In this document: in pieces, positions 436 to 49,670 of the stretch
Position numbering within the stretch: position 1 is the stretch's first letter
Layout: every line of letters starts with the position of its first letter
Source of the DNA: Rhea pennata
Lineage: Eukaryota > Chordata > Aves > Rheiformes > Rheidae
Direction of reading: 5' to 3'
Assembly (NCBI RefSeq): GCF_028389875.1
Contig: NC_084702.1
Span: 66,189,582-66,253,581 of the forward strand
Length of the DNA stretch: 64,000 nt
Notes under the pieces: model-generated
What the model saw: only the letters and a program-made list of their open reading frames with translations
Database searches by the model: none
Told to the model about the DNA's origin: nothing
Program-made: the position numbers and the translations under genes

Positions 436-1050
436 GAACCTGATATTGATGATGTATGTGAAAACATCACTAAAAAGGCAGATGAAAAGCTAGCAGATAT
501 AGAACCAAGACCAACTGGCCAACATTCACATCATCACCACCTACACAGACACAGACATCACCACCGGGAGGGGAGTCGTCATCCTGAAACTGCAGAACGA
601 CATCCTTCTCAAGGCAGCAGGCGTCATAGAGTTTTTGGCCGTAACAGACATGATCAGAGAGGTAGCCAAGAACAGGTAGAAACGCTTCCTCAGGGAGAAG
701 GTGCAGATTTTCTTACACAAGGTAAAAACCTATGAAAAAAGGGAAAAATCAACTGTAAAAATCAGCTAACTTGAAACTGGGAGAAAGCATCAGATTCAAC
801 TTCTAGTAGCTGATGCTGACATTGTCGACACCTTTTGTTTGAACAGCTAGGGAATTCTGTCACTTGACAGTGTCGTGGGGCACTTCCCAATTCTTGCAGG
901 TGACATGGCCAGCTGTTAGCAGAGGACATTACTGAATCTTGACAGTGACGTCTGCTATCAGCTGCCTGACAGTCATCAGCAGCAAGTGAAACTCGTGACA
1001 CCTGACAGTGACGGGAAAAGGCAGGAAACTGAGCCTGAGAAACAAACTAA
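436..1050 (+). CDS. SELENOP: Selenoprotein P, terminal coding exon with 13 Sec codons
   Basis: This is the C-terminal 204 residues of the secreted plasma selenium-transport protein. The frame opens in phase 0 after the acceptor at 435 and ends at TAA 1048-1050, with no TAA or TAG between. It starts with a CENITKK segment, then a His-rich stretch (ten His in the fourteen codons 523-564) of the type that binds heparin and metals, then the Sec-rich tail. In-frame TGA codons lie at 733, 772, 811, 817, 865, 901, 940, 946, 967, 1003, 1009, 1030 and 1036. Read as Sec, the tail contains HCRHLLFE and UQURLLSAAUQ, which match the mammalian tail (HCRHLIFE, QURLPPAAUQ) from memory. The segment L-U-K-K-G-K-I-N at about 730 aligns with mammalian LCRRGCIN, so the first two TGAs are inside the coding exon and no intron is needed there. 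The upstream exons are outside the window. The number of Sec codons is higher than in the human tail (nine). Confidence 0.96.
733..1038 (+). other. SELENOP: Sec recoding region (thirteen TGA codons)
   Basis: Thirteen TGA codons share one frame over 306 bases. Eight of them (817, 865, 901, 940, 946, 967, 1003, 1009) are followed by C, the context known to terminate least efficiently. Conserved flanking residues on both sides of most TGAs support decoding as Sec rather than chance openness. Decoding needs a SECIS element in the 3'UTR. Confidence 0.93.
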
Positions 1051-1366: not shown

Positions 1367-1435
1367 TGCTTGCATTTGTGAGGACAGAAGCATAAACTAT
1401 GACCTAGGGGCTTCTGTTTGATGCCAGCAAACAAG
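1367..1435 (+). promoter_or_regulatory. Candidate SECIS element
   Basis: The core quartet is TGAG at 1379-1382 opposite TGAT at 1419-1422. Between them is a helix of about 10 bp: ACAGAAGC (1384-1391) pairs with GCTTCTGT (1410-1417), extended by two G-T wobbles. The apical loop holds AAA at 1394-1396, about 12 bases after the quartet, where the conserved unpaired adenines belong. A lower helix can form from CTTG (1369-1372) and TTTG (1375-1378) with CAAA and CAAG (1428-1435). The base before TGA is G, not the usual A, and the lower helix is weak, so this is a candidate only. Confidence 0.5.
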
Positions 1436-2000
1436 AATAGAAGATGACAAAAAAGATATTTTAATCATACTTTATTATTAAGAAAGAACATGGAATATAT
1501 TCAGAAGTTTTTTCCTAACCTATGGATACAAAATGTGTACAATGAAAGCTTAGTCCTAAGCTAACACACCAAAATACCTTTTTATCTTAAATGTAACCAC
1601 TAATTGCATTATTTTAAAGTAACAGATTTATATGTTTATCTTATATTGCTATATACTGTATCAGAGCCCAATAATACATACTGCTGTGGCTTGTAAAATC
1701 TCATTAAATGAATAGGATCATGTCTAAAATGAGACAGCCTTAACAGCCCTTGATGCGGATCAGTATCTGTACCACCTCCCCCCCTAAATTCAGTCTTAAT
1801 GTTTATCTTTGTAACAGTGCTGAATTTGATAATCTATATTGATTTGTAATTTGTAAACTTCTGTTTGTAACTTAGTATTCTTTAACTTTGATTAACCAAG
1901 TTGAAGTGAAAAGAAAGTTGTTTGAAAGATTCTTGGATAAGGAAAGGAAAGCTACTTTGAGAGCATACACCATAATTAATGATGGTTTAATAGGGAAATT

Positions 2001-2006
2001 TTTATT
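2001..2006 (-). terminator. CCDC152: Possible CCDC152 poly(A) signal
   Basis: TTTATT on the + strand is AATAAA on the - strand, about 210 bases past the CCDC152 stop codon. If it is used, the CCDC152 transcript overlaps the last 100 or so bases of the SELENOP 3'UTR in antisense. Confidence 0.4.
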
Positions 2007-2098
2007 CCTACAAACCTGAAGCTTCTTATGGTGGATAAGCAAGAAAGTAATACTGAACAGAATGTATGCTTATGGAATATTTGACAAGAGAGTTTTCC

Positions 2099-2104
2099 AA
2101 TAAA
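2099..2104 (+). terminator. SELENOP: SELENOP poly(A) signal
   Basis: AATAAA followed within 20-40 bases by a T/G-rich stretch, 111 bases before the stop codon of the convergent CCDC152 gene. It is the best-placed signal downstream of the SELENOP stop codon. An earlier AATAAA-like run at about 1129 could give a shorter form. Confidence 0.65.
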
Positions 2105-8300: not shown

Positions 8301-11300
8301 CTGTAAAAACAACTGAAACTCTTTCTTCAAGAATCTCTGTACAAATACGATCAACTATCTTTTTTTTTTCTAAGACATTCTCCTTATTTCATTTATCATA
8401 CAACTTTGGAGAAGGCTATGTTTTCAAAGAATGACTTCTGGACTATATTTAATTATATATTATATATAATATATATATATAAGCGTATATGTGTATATAT
8501 ACACATATGTAAAAGTATATATATTTATTATATTTACTTAAACCTCACTTCCATAACTCAGGTTAAAGACTCCTAGTCTTTTATTAACAGACCACAAAAC
8601 TTCAGAAAAAAAGAATCTATATATTGTGTTGCCCAAAGATTGTACATATAAAACAAAAGTAAGTAAGTTACTTCATATTTGAGATTTAGCTTATTTAACA
8701 ACGTCATTATCCCAAGCCTCTCCTTTGCAGATGTACTTCAGGTTAAGACAATGGCATGCAAGAAAAAAGGCTGCTGAACATTTTGTTAATGTTGTTAACG
8801 GCTATATAAACAGGAAACATTTGGCACGTACAACTGTTAGAATAGTTTATTTTAAAGATTCAGTGAACATGGTGTATAGGATAGGGGCTTGAAAAATAGT
8901 AACAAGACAGATATCACTAGATGGATTTGGGAGTTCCCAGTGTATCAAAGTGCTCTGACAGGTAGATGTTGCTCTGTAATTAGACCTGATGTCAGACCCT
9001 ACATCCTTTAACCTGGATGTTTCTTCTGCTAGTAATTAAATATGCTTGATTACAATGAAAAAAACCCCCAGAGATTGAGCAAGACATTGTGCCAGAAACT
9101 GAGGCTAGGATTGGAGGGGCAGGTACTAGAAGTGCCAACAATGGGGACTGGCATAAGGAGCAAAAAGGATCGTAAGGGTAAGATGACATATACAAATCCA
9201 CCAAGGTGAGGTGGATCATCAGGAAATCTAGGGAAGGATAAAGGCAGGATATAAGAAATCAGGCTTTAGGAATGTCAGCGCAACCCTACTGATGAACCAT
9301 GATGATACCTGTTGGAATTTCTGTATTTCCCGTTATTTTATTAAAAACAGACACTATATACAAAAATCTATATAAATGGAACATTAAGACTGCAAGTCAA
9401 ACTTCCAAAAATTTGGATATGATGGAATTAAGATTGCTTAAAAATCATAGTTTGTCTTGAATACATGTGCAGTAATACACAATTCTTCCCCAGAATGAAC
9501 TAGATGAAGAGAATGAGGAGAGACAAAGACAGTGATCTGGGGATAAATCATTACCATTGCCATTTCAGTTATACAAAGTCAGAATTTTATTTTGAGTGAA
9601 ATGGGATGCAGTAGGACAGGGAAAGTTTGGTACCACAGCGCAATAGATTCCATCCCTGCCTCCCTCAAACAGTTTCTTTGTAGTACCTCTAAGCCAGGAG
9701 ATGGTGTCAGTGTGCCACTGTCCATAGTCTGTGCTACTAAGTGTCCTGCAAGCCACTGTGACTACGTAATATATCACATTCCTGCAGGCATATTAAGACC
9801 AGAATAAAGTGTCCTTGACCACTTACTCCTCATTTTATGGATACTTACCTTGAGATACGAGCTTCCAGGTACTGCAAATATGTAACTACTAAACAAGACT
9901 GTGCAAACCTACCAAATCATAGAATCAGTAAGGTTGGAATGGACCTCTGGAGATCATCTAGTCCAACCTCCCTGCTCAGCAGGGTCACCAAAAGCATGGT
10001 AGACAGGGTTGCATCCAGGCAGGCCTTGAAGATCTCCAGAGAAGGAGACTCCACAGCCTCTCTGGGCAACCTGTGCCAGGGCTCCGTCACTCTCACAGGG
10101 AAGAAATTCCCCCTCACGGTCAGGCGGAACTTCCTGTGCTTCAATTTCTGCCCATTGCCTCTTGTCCTGTCACATGGGACAACTGAAAAGAGTTTGTCCC
10201 CGTCCCCTTGACACCCTCCCTTCAGGTACTTGTACACATTGATAAGATCCCCCCTCAGTTTTCTCTTCCCCAGGCTGAAGAGGCCCAGCTCTCACAGCCG
10301 TTCCTCATGGGGCAGATGCTCCAGCCCTCTGACCATCTTCATAGCCCTACGCTGGACTCTCTCCAGTAGCTCCATGTCTCTCCTGTACTGGGGAGCCCAG
10401 AACCAGACTCAGCACTCAAGATGAGGCCTCCCCAGGGCTGAGGAGAGGGGCAGGATCACCTCCCTCGACTTGCTGGCAACACTCTTCCTAATGCACCCCA
10501 GGACACCATTGGCTTTCTTGGCCACGAGGGCACATTGCTGGCTCATGGTCAATTTGTCATCCACCAGCACTCCCACGTCCTTCTCTGCAGAGCTGCTCTC
10601 CAGAAGGTCAGCCCCCACCTTGTACTGGTGCCTGGGGTTATTTCTCCCTAGGTGCAGGACTCTGCACTTGCCCTTGTTGAATCTCATGAGGTTCCTCTCT
10701 GCCCAGCTCTCCAGCCTGTCCAGGTCTCTCTGAATGGCAGCACAGCCCTCAGGTGGTCCAGCCACTCCTCCCAGCTTGGTATCATCGGCAAACTTGCTGA
10801 GGAGGCACTCTGTCCCCTCATCCAGGTTGTTGATGAATAAGTTGAACAGGATGGGACCCAGTACTGAGCCCTGGGGATACCACTAGCCACAGGCCTTCAA
10901 CTAGACTCCACGCCACTGATGATGACCCTCTGAGCTCTGCCTTTCAGCCAGTTCTCAATCCACCTCACTGTCCACTCATGTAACCCACACTTCCTGAGCT
11001 TCTCTAGGAGGATGTTATGGGAGACAGGGTCAAAAGCCAAGTATAACAGACTATGAAGAATTAGACTTAAAGTGGACACCTACAATTGAGGGATTTTTTT
11101 TGACATTCATATTCATATCCAGTACAAATGGATTCCCATTTGTAAAAGGGAAACAATAGAAGATCTGCTTTTCCTTAAATAGTATTTATACACCTTGGGT
11201 TCCTTGTAACCTTATCAGTAAAGTTACAAATCATTCAAAGACTGAGGAAAATTTGAAATTCAAATTGCCTGCTCTTAAAACTTTCCTTTTTATTTCTGGA

Positions 11301-34588: not shown

Positions 34589-49670
<15,082 letters not shown>

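Follow-up and report, generated by a model that had tools for sequence, protein, structure and literature searches.

Among birds, SELENOP (SelPa/SEPP1) has been described for the turkey (Meleagris gallopavo), whose cDNA (JQ660509) has 12 cloned UGAs and one predicted upstream, giving 13 selenocysteine (Sec) residues (PMC4466519). In the literature text covered by our search, turkey was the only bird with a stated Sec count. Across vertebrates, SEPP1 is reported to contain 7 to 18 Sec residues, and most of the variation, largely due to replacement of Sec by Cys, falls in the part of the tail that ends with the ApoER2 site (PMC4699779). We analysed a stretch of 64 kb of Rhea pennata DNA (the window), which starts at position 66,189,582 of its contig and to whose first letter all coordinates are referred. 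On the grounds set out below, positions 436 to 1050 are almost certainly the last coding exon of a SELENOP orthologue, the product of which would be a secreted protein of 378 residues with its UGAs recoded via SECIS elements. The gene is an ordinary bird-like SELENOP.

The last coding exon and the whole gene

The frame at 436 to 1050 has 205 codons on the plus strand, of which 13 are TGA, none is TAG and one is TAA. The sole TAA is the final codon and 204 residues are encoded, and the codon count is therefore as an earlier note on this DNA had it, namely 13 in-frame TGA codons and neither TAA nor TAG until 1048. Note that 13 TGA codons as a bare count are not beyond chance within the window: a second such stretch, of 229 codons with no TAA or TAG before its end, lies on the minus strand (plus-strand coordinates 9958 to 10647). 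It is held by a repeat-like element with a reverse-transcriptase fragment (9920 to 10882, minus strand), which we take to be of the CR1 type; a minus-strand frame at 10412 to 10882, overlapping the 13-TGA stretch, gave a reverse transcriptase match (E = 3.1e-9). The existence of this other frame would favour the reading of 436 to 1050 as a TGA-rich frame that lacks TAA and TAG by chance. However, that reading is rejected by the homology to SelP_C and SelP_N and by the agreement of the Sec positions with those published for the turkey cDNA, which, together with the acceptor AG and the matching upstream exons, set the frame apart from chance, and we give it practically no credence.

The Pfam domain SelP_C matched exon residues 75 to 204 (profile positions 5 to 133 of 133, E = 3e-29). 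The bases 5' of position 436, TTTTCTAG, form a splice acceptor with its AG at 434 to 435, and the exon joins the preceding one in phase 0. As in SELENOP, the last coding exon encodes a His-rich region and, after it, a C-terminal tail with multiple Sec residues. The proposal that this is a SELENOP tail exon thus gains support from the SelP_C match, the upstream exons and the turkey Sec positions. Identity with SELENOP2 (SelPb), which as a rule has a single Sec and no Sec-rich tail (PMC2397514), is excluded by the 13 in-frame tail TGA codons. Among the matches to solved structures, there was no SELENOP relative; a match to ribosomal protein S4e (E = 0.84) and another ending in a run of His (E = 0.022), each the best of its search, were both taken as chance.

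Three upstream coding exons were read from the same chromosome, outside the window, and joined to 436 to 1050 (Table 1). The four joined exons encode 378 residues, starting MWAGLGLVLSLCLLPGG, with 14 Sec, 13 Cys and 21 His, and matched both SelP_N (E = 1.1e-98) and SelP_C (E = 1.1e-28). The SelP_N domain has one Sec in a UxxC motif, UYLC at residues 55 to 58. The N-terminal Sec that had been predicted upstream is accordingly present, as residue 55, and the total of 14 agrees with the expectation of about 14, above the 10 of human SELENOP. A segment of the N-terminal part is identical to a rat peptide at 23 of 24 positions (ungapped alignment; peptide from PMC8230778). UYLC and its surroundings, a Sec tail ending in U-x-U pairs and a SECIS in the 3' UTR are shared with human and rat SELENOP. 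In the protein, a thioredoxin-like N-terminal domain, with a single Sec in UYLC, would be followed by a His-rich middle and then by the tail, which has 13 in-frame TGA codons in the assembly as given; UGA recoding in Rhea pennata, secretion and selenium transport would be expected by analogy with the SELENOP family.

We also considered a processed or decayed SELENOP pseudogene, since in-frame stops can come from decay. Nothing was found in its support, whereas introns and splice borders are present, the four coding exons contain no internal TAA, TAG or frameshift, and a SECIS lies downstream (Table 1). Furthermore, a DNA search of the rhea's own genome with the exon 436 to 1050 returned this locus alone among the best candidates scored. 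The intact exons and this single place led us to reject the pseudogene, which we regard as scarcely credible.

Table 1. Features of the Rhea pennata SELENOP locus. Positions are relative to the window; turkey residues are those of the cloned part (PMC4466519), and rat residues are from a peptide in PMC8230778.
Feature	Position	Strand	Residue	Turkey residue	Remarks
Upstream coding exon	-5246 to -5056				GT/AG borders, matching phases
Upstream coding exon	-3237 to -3025				GT/AG borders, matching phases
Upstream coding exon	-1395 to -1278				GT/AG borders, matching phases
Last coding exon	436 to 1050	+			His-rich region, Sec-rich tail, TAA at 1048 to 1050; SelP_C, acceptor AG
Sec codon	733 to 735	+	274	226	Rat Sec (KLURRG)
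Sec codon	772 to 774	+	287	239	Rat Cys
Sec codon	811 to 813	+	300	252	Human SUCCHCR
Sec codon	817 to 819	+	302	No UGA	Human Cys
Sec codon	865 to 867	+	318	270
Sec codon	901 to 903	+	330	282
Sec codon	940 to 942	+	343	295	Human Cys (ESCQUR)
Sec codon	946 to 948	+	345	297
Sec codon	967 to 969	+	352	304
Sec codon	1003 to 1005	+	364	318	Past 2-residue gap
Sec codon	1009 to 1011	+	366	320
Sec codon	1030 to 1032	+	373	327
Sec codon	1036 to 1038	+	375	329
SECIS 1	1369 to 1431	+			GTGA core, AAA in upper part; Rfam RF00031
Candidate SECIS 2	1968 to 2033	+			Form-1-like; fold z -2.96; own structural pattern
Poly(A) signal (likely)	2099 to 2104	+			AATAAA

Sec positions compared with turkey and mammals

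As shown in Table 1, the UGA residues reported for turkey fall on Sec codons of the rhea gene in all 12 cases, with one 2-residue gap, and one of the 13 tail Sec codons here is unmatched. Specifically, subtraction of 126 from the turkey residues gives exon residues 100, 113, 126, 144, 156, 169, 171 and 178, and the last four turkey UGAs follow after the gap. Random placements (n = 300), for which an offset and one gap of at most 3 were likewise allowed, reached no more than 7 coincidences with turkey. The two genes also share the N-terminal Sec, which is a prediction in turkey. On the other hand, turkey has 13 Sec residues to the 14 of the rhea gene, and residue 302 corresponds to none of the UGAs in the published turkey list.

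The first two tail codons, 733 and 772, had attracted attention in the earlier note. A small intron at about 722 to 792 would remove both TGA codons and leave 12 Sec residues, and AAG/GTAAAA at 719 to 727 does look like a 5' splice site. However, the SelP_C match spans this stretch, running from exon residue 75 through the exon end, Sec also occupies the first site in the rat peptide, and the turkey UGAs at 226, 239 and 252 are spaced by 13 and 13 residues, the same as exon residues 100, 113 and 126. Because the turkey data are from cDNA, the first two tail UGAs are exonic in turkey, which is evidence against the intron. We reject it on this spacing and consider it very improbable. Conservation across 733 and 772, the lack of which in orthologues the earlier note had named as a refutation, was found in the turkey cDNA, with UGAs at both places at the same spacing.

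The further suggestion that mammals have Cys or non-Sec residues at these two codons agrees with the rat at 772, where it has Cys, and disagrees with it at 733, where the rat peptide KLURRGCIN has Sec (PMC8230778). Because of this peptide, the form LCRRGCIN, given earlier as mammalian, is not general for mammals, and Sec at 733 is no peculiarity of birds. When rat 252-278 was aligned with gaps, U274 stood over the rat Sec and U287 over the rat Cys at all five gap costs. Note that ungapped alignment was applied to 11 peptides, three of which (human 347-368, rat 333-357 and rat 252-278) were misplaced or shifted and were left uncounted. The fold of 736 to 816, sought as a recoding structure 3' of codon 733, was unremarkable (z = -1.39; 18 of 200 shuffles were as good).

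The codon that differs from the turkey cDNA is neither 733 nor 772; it is 817 to 819, the sole tail Sec beyond those of turkey, and the surrounding residues read SUCUHC(R) here and SUCCHC(R) in human. Relative to turkey, Sec at residue 302 may be a gain here, a loss in turkey or an error. A lineage-specific Cys-to-Sec gain in this bird would run opposite to the usual Sec-to-Cys loss, and we hold it to be rather unlikely; if true, the number of Sec residues would still be rising in some birds. It is improbable that this TGA is a polymorphism or stems from faulty sequencing or assembly, and that the usual Sec number is 13, as in turkey: TGA is one base away from TGC or TGT and no other tail Sec codon is without a turkey counterpart, but Sec/Cys exchange is reported to be common among vertebrates in this part of the tail (PMC4699779).

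With 14 Sec residues as counted, the rhea SELENOP is not unusual, because the published vertebrate range given above includes this number, turkey has nearly as many and the count in fish is reported to reach 37 (PMC12822975). Fish SelPa likewise has a Sec-rich tail in its last coding exon (PMC6301783), in which it resembles the rhea gene, and differs in having 15-17 Sec residues (PMC4699779). The Sec count bears on differences in selenium supply between bird lineages, and 14 lies inside the known range. Residues 274, 287, 302 and 343 of the rhea protein all fall in the tail region that ends with the ApoER2 site, where the reported variation is concentrated. Human peptides from mass spectrometry have Cys at the positions of bird 302 and 343. 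Human SELENOP presumably has Cys at 274 and 287 as well, and Cys at these four positions would explain the human count of 10 against 14 here.

SECIS elements and the likely poly(A) signal

The 3' UTR contains SECIS 1, which passed the Rfam gathering threshold narrowly (36.2 bits against 35) and whose fold gave a z score of -2.31 (4 of 200 shuffles were as good). Its Rfam match starts 319 bases past the stop codon, compared with 313 for the start of the turkey SECIS as published (PMC4466519). A candidate second SECIS lies downstream: its helix I has 8 pairs (CACCATAA/TTATGGTG), its core reads ATGA/TGA, its helix II has 11 pairs, and its apical loop begins with AA; 1 of 200 shuffles gave a fold as good. 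A structural pattern, written after the candidate had been seen, matched this site alone in the 64 kb on both strands, and gave a hit in 1 of 300 resampled UTRs that kept the dinucleotide steps. This pattern misses SECIS 1, whose AA sits in an internal bulge, and the candidate was absent from the Rfam matches up to E = 10.

The candidate ends about 65 bases before the AATAAA, a spacing that agrees with the arrangement described in human, where the poly(A) site lies just 3' of SECIS 2 (PMC5133445). Its distance from SECIS 1, about 540 bases, exceeds the average of 334 given in the literature (PMC3316567) and speaks somewhat against it. Mammalian SELENOP has two SECIS elements in its 3' UTR, whereas the turkey authors, in the text of their report, identified one only (PMC4466519); if the candidate is real, this apparent oddity of the turkey report is removed. 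The SECIS elements of the rhea gene, one sure and one likely, would recruit the Sec machinery, by which the UGAs would be read as selenocysteine. In mouse, SECIS 2 acts mostly on the first UGA and SECIS 1 on those after it (PMC5133445), and by analogy the same division of labour may hold in the rhea gene.

Annotation and neighbouring genes

The rhea SELENOP illustrates well how a gene is shortened by simple ORF callers, and can be used as a check on how Sec-rich genes are annotated automatically. RefSeq runs a pipeline for selenoproteins. The expectation of the earlier note, that the gene is invisible to ordinary ORF callers and would be called truncated or noncoding, accords with the frequent misannotation already published, in which selenoprotein genes were well annotated at 11% in Ensembl, 5% in GenBank and 77% in RefSeq (PMC12822975).

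Exons of a coiled-coil-like gene lie on the minus strand at 2215 to 2337 and 2865 to 2951, convergent with SELENOP; from its position, this gene is presumably CCDC152. A Pfam search with the two joined exons gave only matches below the cut-offs. Its stop codon (2215 to 2217) is about 110 bases past the SELENOP poly(A) signal, and four minus-strand AATAAA motifs occur in 1051 to 2300. One of them is at 2001 to 2006, so that a CCDC152-like 3' UTR ending there would overlap candidate SECIS 2. Human CCDC152 neighbours SELENOP, and its RNA, antisense to SELENOP, is reported to inhibit SELENOP translation (PMC8266573). The synteny of SelPa is described as conserved, including chicken and human, in a statement that gives no gene names (PMC6301783). 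Farther along the window, the last exon of the growth hormone receptor gene (GHR) was found on the minus strand at 34592 to 35560 (PF12772, E = 3.3e-134). In human, GHR is presumably also a neighbour of SELENOP.
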